64,000 bases of DNA from Anaerolineaceae bacterium. GTDB taxonomy: Bacteria; Chloroflexota; Anaerolineae; Aggregatilineales; Phototrophicaceae. Shown piece by piece: positions 1,897 to 8,069 of the stretch; the stretch's first letter is position 1, and each line of letters opens with the position of its first letter. The position numbers were made by a program, and so were the translations under genes. The DNA lies in contig REDR01000123.1 of the NCBI GenBank assembly GCA_007693385.1, forward strand, positions 62,001 to 126,000. The letters run 5' to 3'. Below the pieces are notes generated by a model that was given only the letters and a program-made list of their open reading frames with translations, was not told the DNA's origin and made no database searches.

Positions 1897-2167
1897 GGAT
1901 ACGTTAACTCACTCACAAATTGCAATTGTTACGATATATCTTCATGATCGTTCATTCTGCATTTTTTGTCATGTCGGGAAAGTTTGATACTTTCTGCACG
2001 GTATCTTGTGATTAATTTGACTTGTGGCAAAGTCGTGTCGCGTATAACATGGTGCATGATAACACATGCGACTATCGCCGCATTTTGAGCGGCTTCCTCG
2101 CTTCATTGGAACCCCGCGCGGTGGTGCAAAGAGCGCCTGACCGCCGTAACAGTTAGGAGAAATATCT

Positions 2168-3484
2168 ATGAAAGATTCCACCCGGAAGTGGTTGTGGCTT
2201 CTTCTTTACTTTGTGATTCTGCTGGCGCCACTTCTTATAGTCATGATCGGACCGCGCCCTGAACCGCGCGAGTTCTGGCGAGAGCTATCAGTCGCGCTGG
2301 GGTTTGTCGGGTTGGCGCTGGTCGGCACGCAGTTTATCCCGACTGCACGATTGCAAATCCTGTCTAATCTATTCTCGATGGACGAAGTGTACTACTACCA
2401 TCTGCGGGCGGCATTGGTCGGCTTCGTGTTGATATTGGCGCATCCGTTGATCCTGTTCATGTTTAACCCAACGTCGGTACGCCTGCTCAATCCGATGACC
2501 GCACCCGCCCGCGCTACGTTCGGCGTCATCGCTGTGCTGGCGATGATCGGCATTATGGTCACGTCGATTTATCGCAAGCAACTCAACATCAAATATGAGG
2601 TATGGCGCACTTTTCACATGATCTTCGCGGTGGTGATGGTGTTGACGGCGATGCTTCATGTATTGGGCGTGGACTATTATCTGGCTAGCCCGCTACAGCG
2701 CGGCCTATGGACGGTGTTAACGGTGGTCTGGCTGGGCTTGATCGTCAACACGCGCTTATTGAAGCCGGTGCGACAGCTTTCCGTCCCATACAAAGTAACC
2801 GAGATTCGTCCGGAAGTCGATTACGTCTGGACGCTGGTCATCAAACCGGATGGACATGACGGATTGCGCTTCATCCCCGGTCAATTCGTCTGGCTCATCA
2901 TTCAGCGCCCACCGTTTGCCATCCGTCAACATCCGTTCTCGATAGCGTCTAGCGCGGAGGAACACGACCATCTGGAATTTACCATCGGCGAAGCGGGTGA
3001 CTTCACAGCTAAGATCGGCGAAGTGCCGGTTGGGGCGCGTGTCTATGTCGATGGCCCGCACGGTAGCTTTAGCATTGATAAGTATGACGCGCCGGGCTAC
3101 GTGTTCATCGCCGGTGGCATCGGTTCACCGCCGATCATGAGCATGATCCGCACATTGGCTGATCGTGGTAGCGACAAACCGCTATGGCTGTTTTACGGCA
3201 ATGTGAAATATGAATCCATCGCTTATCGTGAAGAATTAGAAGCCTTGCAGGACACTTTGAACCTGAAAGTGATTCATGTGCTGGAAAAACCGTCGGAAGA
3301 CTGGGAAGGGGAGTCCGGCTTCATCAGTGCCGAGATACTTGACCGGCATTTATCGCAAGATCGGAATGATATGATCTATTTCATCTGCGGCCCGGTGCCG
3401 ATGATCGGCGCGATGTTGACCGCATTGAAGCAGATCGAAGTTCCGTTGGTTAATGTGCATACTGAACAATACGATATGGTGTAG
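2168..3484 (+). CDS. NOX/ferric-reductase-type transmembrane flavocytochrome oxidoreductase
   Basis: 438 residues. The N-terminal half is a ferric-reductase-like membrane domain of about six helices with His78/His92 and His150/His164. Each pair is 14 residues apart, the spacing used to bind two stacked b hemes in NOX/FRE proteins. The C-terminal half is a ferredoxin-reductase-like module with the FAD motif RQHPFSIAS (about 253-261), an NAD(P) site GGIGSPPIMSMIR and the terminal CGPVPMIGAM motif. The family moves electrons from cytoplasmic NAD(P)H through FAD and two hemes to an acceptor outside the membrane. The start has a clear AGGAG. The 30-residue membrane peptide and the pentaheme cytochrome just downstream are plausible partners; the final acceptor is not shown by sequence. 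Confidence 0.88.
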   Translation: MKDSTRKWLWLLLYFVILLAPLLIVMIGPRPEPREFWRELSVALGFVGLALVGTQFIPTARLQILSNLFSMDEVYYYHLRAALVGFVLILAHPLILFMFNPTSVRLLNPMTAPARATFGVIAVLAMIGIMVTSIYRKQLNIKYEVWRTFHMIFAVVMVLTAMLHVLGVDYYLASPLQRGLWTVLTVVWLGLIVNTRLLKPVRQLSVPYKVTEIRPEVDYVWTLVIKPDGHDGLRFIPGQFVWLIIQRPPFAIRQHPFSIASSAEEHDHLEFTIGEAGDFTAKIGEVPVGARVYVDGPHGSFSIDKYDAPGYVFIAGGIGSPPIMSMIRTLADRGSDKPLWLFYGNVKYESIAYREELEALQDTLNLKVIHVLEKPSEDWEGESGFISAEILDRHLSQDRNDMIYFICGPVPMIGAMLTALKQIEVPLVNVHTEQYDMV

Positions 3485-3521
3485 TTATAAGAATTAACGA
3501 TTGATGAGAGAAGGGGGTTTC

Positions 3522-3614
3522 ATGTATAGGACTTATGCAATCGGTCTGGTGTGGGCGACATTTGTTGTGCTGGTGCTGGCATCAGTGATATTCGCATTGT
3601 TGCGAACGCTGTAA
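3522..3614 (+). CDS. 30-residue single-pass membrane peptide
   Basis: Too short for the ORF track. ATG at 3522 is preceded by a strong purine-rich ribosome binding site (GAGAGAAGGGGG) and the frame closes with TAA at 3612-3614. The product is almost one hydrophobic helix (VWATFVVLVLASVIFALL) with a basic N-terminal end (MYRTY) and an Arg near the C-terminus. It lies 37 bp after the flavocytochrome gene and 36 bp before the multiheme cytochrome, on the same strand, so I infer a small subunit or assembly factor of that electron-transfer complex. No family is recognised. The good RBS and position argue against chance. Confidence 0.6.
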   Translation: MYRTYAIGLVWATFVVLVLASVIFALLRTL

Positions 3615-3650
3615 ATTCGTCACCTGTGGCGAAACCTTAGGAGTTGATTC

Positions 3651-4787
3651 ATGATTAAAAAGTTTTTCGATTTAGTTCTACAGTATCGCGTCGCGTTGTT
3701 CGCGCTGGTGCTGGTCGGGTTGCCAGCGTTGATTATCGCTGTGGCGATCATGCGCGTACAAAGTACGGAGTCGGTGGAGACAATCACCGCACACTGGACG
3801 ATCTCCGGCCATGCTGATTTCACGTCGCGTTCTTTCACATTCTGGGATGATAACGATCCGCCTATGGTTCCGGCGGATTGTGCGGCGTGTCATAGCTTAC
3901 ATGGCATGCTCGATTTCGTCGGTGAGCGCGGCACAGCCGCCGGTTCTGTCTCGGCGGATATGCCTATCGGGAGCGTCGTCTCCTGTGCGGCGTGCCATAA
4001 TGACGCGGTACATCAGATGCAGATGGTTACATTCCCCTCATCGGCGGTTGTGGAAGCGCGGGGCAGTGAAGCTAGTTGCTTGATGTGCCATCAGGGGACG
4101 GAATCGGCTGATAGCGTCGATCAGGCAATCGGCGGTCTGGATGATGATGTTGTGTATGATGAGCTGGGTTTCATCAATGTGCATTATCATGTATCCGCCG
4201 CCACCATGATGGGCACGACAGCGCGGGGCGGTTATGAGTACCCGATGGCGGTCTATGAAGGACGCTTCGAGCATACGCCGGATTTTCAAACGTGTAGCAG
4301 TTGCCACGACGCCCACAATCTGCGCGTCGAGCCGTTGCAGTGTAGCACATGCCATTCTAACGTAGTCACTTATGAGGATTTGCGCGATATACGCGATGAT
4401 CGCACGGACTATGACGGCGACGGCGATACACGTAAAGGTATCGCGCTAGAGATCGACACCTTTCACGACATCTTATATGAGGCGATCCGCACCTATGCCG
4501 ACGAAGTGCTGGACGCACCCATCGTCTATAGTTCGCAACGCTTCCCGTATTTCTTCAACGATGTCAGCGAGGGCGGCGAAATCGACCCGGCTGATTTGAA
4601 CTTCGGCAACCGTTACACTACATGGTCGCCGCGTCTGGTGCGCGTCGCGTATAACTATCATTTCGTGCAGAAAGACCCGGGCGCTTACGCACACAATCCG
4701 CGTTACACGTTGCAACTGCTGTATGACAGCATCAGCGACATCAACCAGAGCGTGCCGGTTGAAATGGCCGCGTTGACCCGCCCGTAG
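3651..4787 (+). CDS. Membrane-anchored pentaheme c-type cytochrome
   Basis: 378 residues. One N-terminal membrane anchor (about 12-34) with no cleavage signal is followed by an exported domain with five CXXCH heme-attachment motifs at 77-81, 112-116, 143-147, 215-219 and 231-235. Many further His residues (HYH 178-180, HDAH) could be distal ligands. After the hemes there is an Asp-rich loop (DYDGDGDTRKG) that resembles a calcium-binding turn, and a conserved-looking C-terminal part (DPGAYAHNPRYTLQLLYDSI). The RBS is TTAGGAG. The product would face the outside of the membrane and pass electrons between the flavocytochrome upstream and a periplasmic or extracellular acceptor. The direction of flow is an inference. 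Confidence 0.85.
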   Translation: MIKKFFDLVLQYRVALFALVLVGLPALIIAVAIMRVQSTESVETITAHWTISGHADFTSRSFTFWDDNDPPMVPADCAACHSLHGMLDFVGERGTAAGSVSADMPIGSVVSCAACHNDAVHQMQMVTFPSSAVVEARGSEASCLMCHQGTESADSVDQAIGGLDDDVVYDELGFINVHYHVSAATMMGTTARGGYEYPMAVYEGRFEHTPDFQTCSSCHDAHNLRVEPLQCSTCHSNVVTYEDLRDIRDDRTDYDGDGDTRKGIALEIDTFHDILYEAIRTYADEVLDAPIVYSSQRFPYFFNDVSEGGEIDPADLNFGNRYTTWSPRLVRVAYNYHFVQKDPGAYAHNPRYTLQLLYDSISDINQSVPVEMAALTRP

Positions 4788-4807: not shown

Positions 4808-5683
4808 CTAAGACGCACACGAATAGCCGCTATGCACGGTGGATATGTCCTCGTGCATAGTGGCTATCACCGCCGCGTTCGCGTTATCCTCCTGCGGTGT
4901 GGTGATCGGGATGACGAGTGGCCGCCCTGTGATGGGGTGCGGCGTGATGATGGCAGGCATGTTGAACGCTGATAAGATCGTCTCCGCCGTCAAGACTTCT
5001 TCGGCAGTTCCACAGGCCAACAAATCCCCGTCACGCAATACCACGATGCGATCCGCGTATTCCGCCGCAAGATTGAGATCATGCAGGATGACCAGCACGC
5101 CAACGCCCTCTGCGGCGAATCGGCGGGCAACTTTGAGCGTGCCATGCTGGTGCGTCAGATCAAGATTGTTGGTTGGCTCGTCCATCAGCAGATAACGTGG
5201 TTGGCCGTCTATCGGTTCCCATATCTGCGCCAGCACCCGCGCGAATTGGGCGCGTTGTCGTTCGCCGCCGCTTAATGTGGTGTAGGTGCGCTCCGCCAGA
5301 TGCTCGACTTCGGCCACCGCCAGCGCTTGATAGGCGATGTCGTAGTCGCGCTCGCTCTCACGCCCGTTGATGTGCGGACTACGTCCCATCAAGACCACTT
5401 CCAGCACACTAAAGGCGAAATGTAGCGGGACGCTCTGCGAGAGGATGGCGCGGACGCGGGCGCGATCTAACAAAGACCATTTATCCAGTGCCCGTCCGCC
5501 CATCTGCACCGCGCCACTGGCGGCGTCGATGTCGCCGGTGATCGCTTTGAGCAGGGTGGATTTGCCCGCCCCGTTGGGGCCGACGACGGCGACGATCTCG
5601 CCGGGTGCAATGGATAGCGAGACATCGCGTAGTAGTTCTTTTTTACCGACGCGGACGGTGATGTTGTGCGCGTTCAAGGTCAT
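4808..5683 (-). CDS. hmuV: Heme ABC transporter ATP-binding protein (HmuV-like)
   Basis: 291 residues. Walker A GPNGAGKST is at 35-43, the ABC signature LSGGERQRAQ near 140 and Walker B YLLMDEPTNNLDL near 165; an H-loop follows in VILHDLNLAAEYADR. Sequence style matches the HmuV/FecE/BtuD group that powers heme, siderophore or cobalamin import. It overlaps the permease gene by ATGA, so the two are translationally coupled. The frame converges with the cytochrome gene 21 bp away. Substrate assignment as heme comes from subgroup likeness and from the heme-rich neighbourhood; a siderophore or B12 substrate is not excluded. Confidence 0.85.
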   Translation of the reverse strand: MTLNAHNITVRVGKKELLRDVSLSIAPGEIVAVVGPNGAGKSTLLKAITGDIDAASGAVQMGGRALDKWSLLDRARVRAILSQSVPLHFAFSVLEVVLMGRSPHINGRESERDYDIAYQALAVAEVEHLAERTYTTLSGGERQRAQFARVLAQIWEPIDGQPRYLLMDEPTNNLDLTHQHGTLKVARRFAAEGVGVLVILHDLNLAAEYADRIVVLRDGDLLACGTAEEVLTAETILSAFNMPAIITPHPITGRPLVIPITTPQEDNANAAVIATMHEDISTVHSGYSCAS

Positions 5684-6843
5684 ATTAATGTACCCCTCTC
5701 ACGGTCTTTGAGCAATAAATACAGGAAGAATGGTGCCCCGATGAGCGCGGTGACGACGCCTAGCGGAATCTCGCGCCCTTCGGCGATGGTGCGGGCGATC
5801 AAATCCGCACCGACCAGCAACGCCGCGCCTAGAAGCATCGAGCCGGGGATCACGTAGCGATGATCCGGCCCGGCTAGCAGGCGGATGAGGTGCGGTACGA
5901 CCAGCCCGACGAAGCCGACAATGCCGGCGACGGCGACACCCGTGCCGACGGCGACGGCGGCCAGCACGATGATGAATTGTTTGGTGCGCTGAATGTTGAA
6001 GCCGAGATGCTCGGCTTCTATTTCGCCGAATAGCAGAGCGTTAAGCGGACGCGATAGCCACAGCATCGGCACCAGCGATATAAGGATGAACGGGACGACA
6101 GTCTCCACACGTTCCCATGAGCCATCAACCAGACTGCCCAATTGCCAGAAGGTGATGTCGCGTATTTCGCTATCGTCAGCGAAGGCGACCAGCATCCCGA
6201 CACCCGCGCCCGCTAAGGCGTTGAGGGCGATACCGGCCAATAGCATCGTCGGCACACTGGTTCTGCCGTTGACCGTCGCCAGCCGGTAGATGAGCAGGGT
6301 GGTGACGACGCCGCCGATGAAGGAAGCAATCGGGCGCAACGGCACGCCGATCTCGTCGAGACTGCCAGCCAATGGACTCAGCGCGGCGGTGTTGCCTAGC
6401 ACGATGACCAGCGCCGCCGCGAATGCTGAACCCGCCGAGATGCCGATCAAGCCCGGGTCGGCTAGCGGGTTGCGAAACATACCTTGAATAGTTGCGCCTG
6501 CCGCCGCCAGCGATGCGCCGATCAATAGACCGAGTACCACACGCGGCAAGCGAATGTTGATGAGTGTGCCGCGTTGCACGGTACTATATTCCGCCGGATA
6601 GCTGAATGATTCGCCGACGTTGAACGATATATCCGGCTGAATGCCGACTTCATCCGCAAGGATGGTCACCACTTGATCGACCCGTATCGGTAACTGTCCG
6701 CTACCGATAGACAGCAAGCTAACGACCAGCAATAGAGCGCTGAGGCTGGCGGCCAGAAAAACGCCTTTGCGCCGGATGTTGGGCGCGACACGACGGGCGT
6801 TCGTCGTCGTCTCGTGCGGTTGCGGGCGGCTGATCGCGCTCAT
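5680..6843 (-). CDS. hmuU: FecCD-family heme/iron ABC transporter permease
   Basis: 387 residues, with a 30-residue cytoplasmic lead and about ten hydrophobic segments. The FecCD family signature is seen around GASLAAAGATIQGMFRNPLADPG and the following ISAGSAFAAALVIVLGN. The cytoplasmic EAEHLGFN segment and the C-terminal GIVGFVGLVVPHLIRLL and LGVVTALIGAPFFLYLL are typical of BtuC/HmuU permeases. It would dimerise and couple to the ATPase encoded downstream. It overlaps both neighbours by ATGA, giving a tight three-gene operon of binding protein, permease and ATPase. Confidence 0.88.
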   Translation of the reverse strand: MSAISRPQPHETTTNARRVAPNIRRKGVFLAASLSALLLVVSLLSIGSGQLPIRVDQVVTILADEVGIQPDISFNVGESFSYPAEYSTVQRGTLINIRLPRVVLGLLIGASLAAAGATIQGMFRNPLADPGLIGISAGSAFAAALVIVLGNTAALSPLAGSLDEIGVPLRPIASFIGGVVTTLLIYRLATVNGRTSVPTMLLAGIALNALAGAGVGMLVAFADDSEIRDITFWQLGSLVDGSWERVETVVPFILISLVPMLWLSRPLNALLFGEIEAEHLGFNIQRTKQFIIVLAAVAVGTGVAVAGIVGFVGLVVPHLIRLLAGPDHRYVIPGSMLLGAALLVGADLIARTIAEGREIPLGVVTALIGAPFFLYLLLKDRERGTLI

Positions 6844-8069
6844 TCTGGCAGTCCATTGAGGATGTACACGTAGCCATTCGCCGTTGAAATGACCGCTTCG
6901 ATCATATCGGCGGGGACGGCTGTCATCTCCTGCGGCGGGATAGCTCCTTGCAGTATCAACGCCGATAGCTCGGATGCACTCAATTCGGTGTCGGCTAGCG
7001 TCAGGGCATCGTTGTTCGGCGCGAGTACGGTGAGAGGTTCGTCAATGTCTAGCGCTTCCAACTGTCCAGCCCGCCGCAGTTGCGCCTCAAATTGCTCTAG
7101 CGCGGGCGATAGACGGACGACAGCATAGGCCGGACGCGGCAAATCCTCATGTAGCAGATACGTCAGATTGAGGATGGCGTCGCCCAGTCGCGGCGTGAAG
7201 CCGAGCAAGAACAGGTCGTCCATCTGCTCGTAGACGATGCGGCCATTCTGCGCGGCAGGTGTCAACGATATGCCGGGCAAGTTCAAGAAATTTTCAACCC
7301 CGCCGACACGCTCCACGCTCAAAGAAGTTGTCAGGATGATGTCGGGCGCGGCGGCGACAATCGCTTCGGCGGTGAGCGGGATGTAGCCGTCCTCGATGGT
7401 GATGGCGTTCTCCACGTTGACCAACTCAAGCATCTGATGCCCGCCGGACGCCCGTCCTAGCACACCTAGCGCGATGTTGCTCCCCGCAAACACGAACAGC
7501 ACGCGCGGGCGCGTCTCGACCATCTCGACCAACGCTTGAGCGCGTTCGATGTCGCGGCGCATCGCCTCAATGATGGCTTCGGCTTCGTCCGATTTGCCGA
7601 CACCGGCGGCCACCGTGCGGATTTTCTCCGCCGCGCCTTCTGGCGTGTCCTCTGCCGGTACGATCAGAACCGGAATGCCGACGCTTTGAATCAAGCGCAG
7701 GGTATCAACCGGCCCGGCGTCCTCGGTGGTGATGATGAGTGATGGCTCATAAGACAAGACCGGCTCGGCGGATAGAAAGCGCAGATAGCCCACCGTGGGC
7801 AGATCGGCGGTTTGTGGCGGGTAGATGCTGGAGACATCCACCGCGATGATGTTGTCGCCCATGCCTAGATCGTACAGAATTTCAGTCACCGCGCCGCCGA
7901 TGCTGATAATGCGTTCCAGATCAGTCGGGGTGATGGTCACGGTATCGCCGAAGGCATCGACGACGGTATAAACGATCTGGTCGGAGTCGTCGGGAATTTC
8001 ATCTTGTGCAAAAGAGGCGCTTACAGTAAGAATCAACAAAGCGCACAACAGTAAATTACGATAAATCAT
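6840..8069 (-). CDS. hmuT: Heme-binding (HmuT-like) protein with C-terminal FAS1-like domain
   Basis: 409 residues. A signal peptide (MIYRNLLLCALLILTVSASFA) leads to a class III periplasmic binding fold: RIISIGGAVTEILYDLG, VDVSSIYPP, VGYLRFLSAEPVLSYEPSLIITT, and VLFVFAGSNIALGVLGRASGGHQML, which is typical of HmuT. After about residue 315 there is an extra segment, FEAQLRRAGQLEALDIDEPL then TVLAPNNDAL, which matches the core pattern of a fasciclin (FAS1) repeat. FAS1 domains mediate adhesion or matrix contact; their role on a transporter component is not known to me. There is no lipobox Cys, so membrane retention could come from the permease or the FAS1 tail. First gene of the operon, with GAGGAG before the ATG. 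Confidence 0.8.
   Translation of the reverse strand: MIYRNLLLCALLILTVSASFAQDEIPDDSDQIVYTVVDAFGDTVTITPTDLERIISIGGAVTEILYDLGMGDNIIAVDVSSIYPPQTADLPTVGYLRFLSAEPVLSYEPSLIITTEDAGPVDTLRLIQSVGIPVLIVPAEDTPEGAAEKIRTVAAGVGKSDEAEAIIEAMRRDIERAQALVEMVETRPRVLFVFAGSNIALGVLGRASGGHQMLELVNVENAITIEDGYIPLTAEAIVAAAPDIILTTSLSVERVGGVENFLNLPGISLTPAAQNGRIVYEQMDDLFLLGFTPRLGDAILNLTYLLHEDLPRPAYAVVRLSPALEQFEAQLRRAGQLEALDIDEPLTVLAPNNDALTLADTELSASELSALILQGAIPPQEMTAVPADMIEAVISTANGYVYILNGLPE

Follow-up and report, generated by a model that had tools for sequence, protein, structure and literature searches.

To what does a NOX-type flavocytochrome pass its electrons when a five-heme cytochrome c is encoded next to it? This question is raised by three genes that lie in the same direction with short gaps (NOX, 2168–3484; a 30-aa ORF, 3522–3614; and a pentaheme cytochrome, 3651–4787) in the window, by which we mean the whole 64,000-nucleotide stretch of Anaerolineaceae DNA that was analysed. 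A first-pass annotation had proposed a route from cytoplasmic NAD(P)H to an outside acceptor, formed by a pair that is not a standard respiratory complex that can be named. We indeed found no named complex that fits, and literature searches on a Chloroflexi ferric reductase with a multiheme cytochrome, or on an Anaerolineae NADPH oxidase with a cytochrome, returned nothing relevant.

Components of the three-gene locus

The first gene had been read as a six-helix bis-heme flavoprotein with NAD(P)H and FAD sites, which its Pfam domains, six predicted transmembrane (TM) helices and four heme-b histidines bear out. Its features are as follows.

2155–2159 (+): Shine-Dalgarno sequence AGGAG of the NOX gene, read directly
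2168–3484 (+): NOX/FRD-type flavocytochrome b, 438 aa, with six TM helices followed by a dehydrogenase domain that binds FAD and NAD(P) (Pfam, AF2, Foldseek)
2399–2401 (+): His78, heme b ligand, helix 3, invariant in 54 of 54 homologues
2441–2443 (+): His92, heme b ligand, helix 3, invariant in homologues
2615–2617 (+): His150, heme b ligand, helix 5, invariant in homologues
2657–2659 (+): His164, heme b ligand, helix 5, invariant in homologues
2930–2941 (+): HPFS flavin-binding motif, residues 255–258, P256 at least 90% conserved
3113–3124 (+): GGIG nucleotide-binding motif, residues 316–319, in PF00175; G316, G317 and G319 at least 90% conserved
3470–3472 (+): Tyr435, C-terminal aromatic residue (alignment)

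The HPFS motif is one that we take to be the counterpart of the NOX HPFT motif. The ORF matches Ferric_reduct (PF01794, E 2.5e-15), FAD_binding_8 (PF08022, E 3.1e-6), PF00970 and NAD_binding_1 (PF00175, E 1.4e-22), and six TM helices are present in its AF2 model (pLDDT 92.6). NOX/FRD proteins are defined by a TM domain of six helices, of which the third and the fifth each carry a His-X12/14-His pair (PMC5676040); here the pairs are H78-X13-H92, within helix 71–99 (helix 3), and H150-X13-H164, within helix 143–168 (helix 5), and a C-terminal FAD- and NAD(P)-binding domain follows (PF08022, PF00970, PF00175; Foldseek). The four heme-b histidines, P21 and W146 are the sole invariant residues in an alignment of 54 NOX sequences. 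We propose from a sequence alignment that Tyr435 is equivalent to F397 of SpNOX, for which the role of the C-terminal aromatic has been described (PMC11031084), and to the terminal Tyr of FNR.

The closest known protein is SpNOX, the Streptococcus pneumoniae NADPH oxidase (PDB 8qt6, 8qq7), which shares the fold and has a similar length, the same two histidine pairs on helices 3 and 5 and the same FAD and NAD(P) domains; the window model matches 8qt6 over its full length (Foldseek E 1.9e-22, TM-score 0.79/0.86). However, no need for a subunit is described for SpNOX (PMC5676040), whereas the window-type NOX has a conserved microprotein and a dedicated pentaheme and occurs mostly in genomes without terminal oxidases. 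MsrQ–MsrP (with Fre) is also alike in that a ferric-reductase-type heme b membrane protein feeds a dedicated extracytoplasmic protein, but there the acceptor is a molybdoenzyme, while here it would be a multiheme cytochrome and the full-length NOX has its own flavin domain. MsrQ itself, which has no flavin domain and a linked MsrP, was rejected as an identity, the protein having a full flavin domain and a cytochrome c as neighbour.

The third gene encodes the membrane-anchored five-heme cytochrome c noted at first pass, with five CxxCH motifs and an N-terminal helix.

3639–3643 (+): Shine-Dalgarno sequence AGGAG of the cytochrome gene, read directly
3651–4787 (+): membrane-anchored pentaheme cytochrome c, 378 aa (sequence, AF2 model)
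3654–3758 (+): N-terminal membrane-anchor helix, residues 2–36 (AF2 secondary structure)
3810–3812 (+): His54, candidate distal heme ligand, invariant in 38 of 38 pentahemes and 66 of 66 modules
3879–3893 (+): heme c motif 1, CAACH, invariant
3984–3998 (+): heme c motif 2, CAACH, invariant
4077–4091 (+): heme c motif 3, CLMCH, invariant
4182–4184 (+): His178, candidate distal heme ligand, invariant in pentahemes and modules
4272–4274 (+): His208, candidate distal heme ligand, invariant in 38 of 38 pentahemes and in at least 90% of 66 modules
4293–4307 (+): heme c motif 4, CSSCH, invariant
4314–4316 (+): His222, candidate distal heme ligand, invariant in pentahemes and modules
4341–4355 (+): heme c motif 5, CSTCH, invariant
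4692–4694 (+): His348, candidate distal heme ligand, invariant in pentahemes and modules

No obvious signal-peptidase or lipobox site was read in its N-terminal sequence. Exactly ten histidines are invariant in 38 single-module pentahemes, namely the five in the CxxCH motifs and H54, H178, H208, H222 and H348. This is the number that five bis-His hemes need, which suggests bis-His ligation of all five. The catalytic heme of NrfA, by comparison, classically has a CxxCK motif.

The AF2 model (pLDDT 94.3, pTM 0.89) found no significant Foldseek relative. OcwA of Thermincola (6i5b; E 0.038, TMq 0.36) came on top together with an undecaheme S-layer cytochrome of Carboxydothermus, followed by NrfA (E 0.5 or worse). 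TM values for OcwA and NrfA were 0.2–0.4, and a profile of the five-heme module gave weak matches to NrfA (E about 1e-5) and to nonaheme cytochromes. Kinship with the NrfA/OcwA group is thus a weak, model-based lead and not membership. OcwA is alike in surface electron transfer by a Gram-positive cell without an outer membrane, but it has nine hemes, two of them with open sites (PMC6703420), whereas the pentaheme has five, all predicted to be bis-His, and no significant match to its fold.

Could the pentaheme itself be an NrfA-like reductase of nitrite, hydroxylamine or a similar soluble substrate, with NOX as its dedicated donor? Besides the likeness to OcwA and NrfA just described, this reading can point to the slow reduction of nitrite by OcwA (PMC6703420). 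In an NrfA-type enzyme, however, the distal site of the catalytic heme is open, and the five CxxCH motifs plus five further invariant histidines leave no obvious open heme; a separate NrfHA-like locus also exists in the window's genome. We consider the reductase reading unlikely, and an NrfA-type identity was rejected because the invariant ligands argue against it. The separate locus (L175; G000:C43:14000-26000) holds an NrfHA-like pair; as far as it was read, the sequence of the NrfA-like ORF shows five CxxCH motifs and lacks CxxCK.

Between the two genes lies the micro-peptide of the first-pass annotation, which proved to be conserved across the class.

3522–3614 (+): microprotein, 30 aa, single TM helix (conservation downstream of NOX, codon pattern, HMM)

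Its sequence is MYRTYAIGLVWATFVVLVLASVIFALLRTL, with basic residues near the N-terminus, a charge distribution that suggests an N-in/C-out topology, and an F-A-x-x-Q-like motif at the C-terminus. A one-helix ORF of 25–40 aa starting about 60 nt or less past the stop codon follows NOX at 29 of 53 full NOX loci, among which are a few pairs that are nearly identical, and was not found at the other 24. Of 276 other genes at these loci, 1 is followed by such an ORF. A Shine-Dalgarno match precedes 27 of these 29 ORFs and not the single ORF behind another gene; in the window the micro-ORF has only a G-rich AAGGGGG upstream, compared with AGGAG for NOX and the cytochrome. In the close relatives L031, L100 and L102, all nucleotide differences fall on third positions and are synonymous. 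Position conservation above background and this synonymous pattern show that the microprotein is genuinely encoded.

A profile from which the window copy had been left out ranked that copy first (17.5 bits), the best of 136 TM segments outside the family reaching 9.4 bits. Third in rank, at 16.5 bits, was the N-terminus of the di-heme cytochrome at L147, probably a natural fusion of microprotein and cytochrome c judging from the sequence. Similar fusions at L146 and L148 were discarded, for although the positions fit, the HMM scores (5.1 and 2.4 bits) are within background. The microprotein also occurs in another Chloroflexota class (L167, L168) and next to a flavin-less NOX (L154), which makes the heme domain its likely partner. 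It matched no family in Pfam or NCBIfam, and its best PDB match (E 0.32) is unrelated; it is a new family that annotation has overlooked.

Conservation, evolution and surroundings of the pair

We searched 301 genomes of the phylum and then, with both NOX and pentaheme profiles, 396 genomes of the class Anaerolineae. In the phylum set, all four single-module pentahemes lie beside NOX, and 16 genomes carry the module twice in tandem, in a protein of about 740 aa that is mostly encoded within other multiheme clusters. In the class set, intact single-module pentahemes were counted by hand among the matches listed, down to about 335 bits, giving at least 27 in 23 of the 396 genomes. Twenty of the 27 lie next to a full NOX and five next to one that retains the heme domain alone, so that 25 adjoin NOX or its TM domain, in support of the proposed route to an outside acceptor; the two unlinked ones (G402, G428) are in genomes with a NOX elsewhere. 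NOX is present in 23 of 23 listed carrier genomes versus 14 of the 373 other class genomes, counts that are subject to incomplete genomes, mechanical ORF calling and neighbourhoods read within fetched stretches. The pair was also found in eighteen Anaerolineaceae-type MAG loci, partly from the same genomes.

Absence of the pair from relatives had been named beforehand as the result that would refute the idea, and the pair is conserved. Its genes are co-directional in either order, convergent or divergent, and inherited operon structure alone would not preserve linkage through such varied orders. The NOX–pentaheme pair is a conserved unit and not a matter of chance neighbours, and NOX, pentaheme and microprotein have evolved together in Anaerolineae.

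The NOX tree places the window protein in a clade with 34 members (SH-aLRT 98), and 31 of these have a linked pentaheme. The six members of a sister clade (L133, L135, L136, L139, L141 and L142) come with the microprotein and without an adjacent cytochrome, implying that NOX can work without the pentaheme. Behind more distant NOX genes lie unrelated membrane-anchored c cytochromes: a di-heme one at L147, a hexaheme one at L148 and, at L146, one with four CxxCH, a partial count since its ORF continues up to the edge of the stretch that was read. A DUF2252 neighbour was confirmed in L147, and a similar ORF is present in L146.

Flavin-less NOX genes, which encode the di-heme b domain without an FAD/NAD domain and so resemble MsrQ in architecture, lie next to a pentaheme at L154–L158, and genomes G589, G602, G618, G665 and G700 hold both the full and the flavin-less kind. 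These copies fall on two apparently separate branches, on which the heme domain and the pentaheme have been kept. In the heme-domain tree L155–L158 group with L134/L140, and in the cytochrome tree their cytochromes lie near L131/L134; duplication of the pair as a unit, with later loss of the flavin domain from one copy, would give this pattern. Two separate losses may tentatively be read from the heme-domain tree, which is short and has many weak forks.

The tandem decahemes of Anaerolineae (L034–L049) consist of two copies of the same five-heme module. They often stand with a nonaheme cytochrome and b561 or with NrfD/FeS modules, octaheme genes being also found nearby, whereas single pentahemes stand with NOX. 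From these gene neighbourhoods, the five-heme module seems to swap its electron-input partners.

On its other side, the pair borders an ABC importer.

4808–8069 (-): ABC importer, convergent with the pair, tail to tail, 20-bp gap

The first-pass annotation had called it a divergent heme importer that would supply the hemes, a claim that found no support: the importer is convergent, was not seen next to the pair or NOX in the relatives examined, and is uncertain in substrate. The ATPase alone passes the cut-off of the NCBIfam heme-importer models; the permease and binding protein fail. On the same grounds we rejected it as part of the electron system. Toward its C-terminus, the binding protein (6840–8069, -) partially resembles fasciclin, at a Pfam E of 0.0011 that is below the cut-off; weak Shiga-toxin model matches (E 0.03) were discarded as noise. 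An assimilatory ferric (or heme/corrinoid) reductase serving this FecCD-type importer would agree with the Ferric_reduct family of NOX and with an iron/heme/B12-class importer ending 20 bp away. Yet that arrangement is convergent and was not seen in the relatives examined, and a pentaheme wire is unusual for assimilation, which makes the assimilatory role highly unlikely.

Upstream and divergent from NOX (1–1896, -) are a multi-PAS histidine kinase, whose length in the wider contig is 707 aa, and an ORF resembling a receiver domain, a possible regulator. Promoter and terminator scans gave signals at or below the shuffled level.

A proposed outward electron conduit

COX1 (heme-copper) and CydA (bd) are both absent from 19 of the 23 carrier genomes, which are incomplete, the six tested carriers of the Anaerolineaceae family being among the 19; of the 12 genomes counted as having a completeness of 90% or more and a contamination of no more than 5%, two contain COX1 and one contains CydA. 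The window's own genome is an exception and has both oxidases. Superoxide production is therefore unlikely as a general role. Generation of superoxide or H2O2, as in SpNOX and eukaryotic NOX, with the cytochrome scavenging superoxide or sensing redox state, would nevertheless suit a protein that has the fold of NOX together with its invariant ligands and its flavin/NAD motifs, in a genome that bears oxidases; SpNOX does produce superoxide (PMC5676040). Against it stand the oxidase-less carriers and the fact that superoxide release needs no strictly co-inherited five-heme partner, and we hold it to be distinctly unlikely. From the gene content, O2 is unlikely to be the main acceptor for NOX, although it may serve as one in the window organism, whose genome has both oxidases.

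Reduction of a cytochrome by NOX has a precedent, as SpNOX directly reduces cytochrome c under argon, at lower efficiency; acceptors other than O2 have been speculated for bacterial NOX, and an SpNOX knockout had no identifiable phenotype (PMC5676040). According to published descriptions, Chloroflexota have no outer membrane (PMC12488501) and the large multiheme cytochromes of Anaerolineales are encoded without porin-cytochrome conduits (PMC7399161); a cytochrome that is anchored and faces outward could therefore reach the surface of the cell. A scan for pairs of CxxCH, a rough proxy for other multiheme cytochromes, matched solely the pentaheme itself in G290, G598, G691 and G696, and no extracellular partner beyond it was identified in the stretches of the carriers that were read.

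From the genes and domains, the invariant candidate ligands, the conserved linkage and the lack of oxidases in most carriers, we infer the electron handover, the role of the microprotein, the direction and the acceptor. We favour, as probable, a three-part NAD(P)H-driven conduit that would carry electrons outward through the membrane of a monoderm cell, from NAD(P)H through FAD, two b hemes and five c hemes. The cytoplasmic dehydrogenase domain of NOX would pass hydride from NAD(P)H to FAD, from which single electrons would move through the inner and then the outer b heme of the six-helix domain, held by His78, His92, His150 and His164. The outer b heme would reduce the anchored pentaheme at the outer membrane face, and its five predicted bis-His c hemes would lead to an acceptor other than O2, at the cell surface or outside. 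The microprotein, N-in/C-out beside the six-helix bundle, may be a small subunit that serves stability or docking. Such outward flow runs down the membrane potential, so the conduit by itself would conserve no energy; it would serve as an electron-disposal valve, in most carriers for a cell that encodes no terminal oxidase.

Outward delivery of electrons is the rule in characterised NOX/FRD proteins. Listeria FLEET (Ndh2–EetAB–PplA) exports electrons from NADH in a monoderm through quinone and flavins. The conduit proposed here is alike in being NADH-driven monoderm export, but would use a single transmembrane flavocytochrome and heme c. Electrons might instead run inward, collected outside by the pentaheme for the flavocytochrome to reduce NAD(P)+. 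The cofactors are chemically reversible and cathodic EET has been reported for a Chloroflexi isolate (Kawaichi et al., as cited in PMC7399161), but this flow would have to overcome both the membrane potential and the redox gradient, for which the locus offers no coupling device, and characterised NOX/FRD proteins send electrons outward (PMC5676040), leaving the inward direction barely plausible.

A broader reading of the outward conduit, which we put forward tentatively and with some doubt, is that NOX, its single-helix subunit and the five-heme module form a self-contained wire for minimal extracellular or interspecies electron transfer in oxidase-less Anaerolineae, with no outer-membrane conduit; elsewhere, to judge by neighbouring genes, the same module may plug into quinol-type inputs. 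The physiological role of bacterial NOX becomes directly testable in a clade whose partner is visible in the genome and that mostly lacks terminal oxidases. For Anaerolineae, which are common in digesters and sediments, the proposed conduit would be a simple route by which cells may dump the electrons of NADH outside without an outer membrane.
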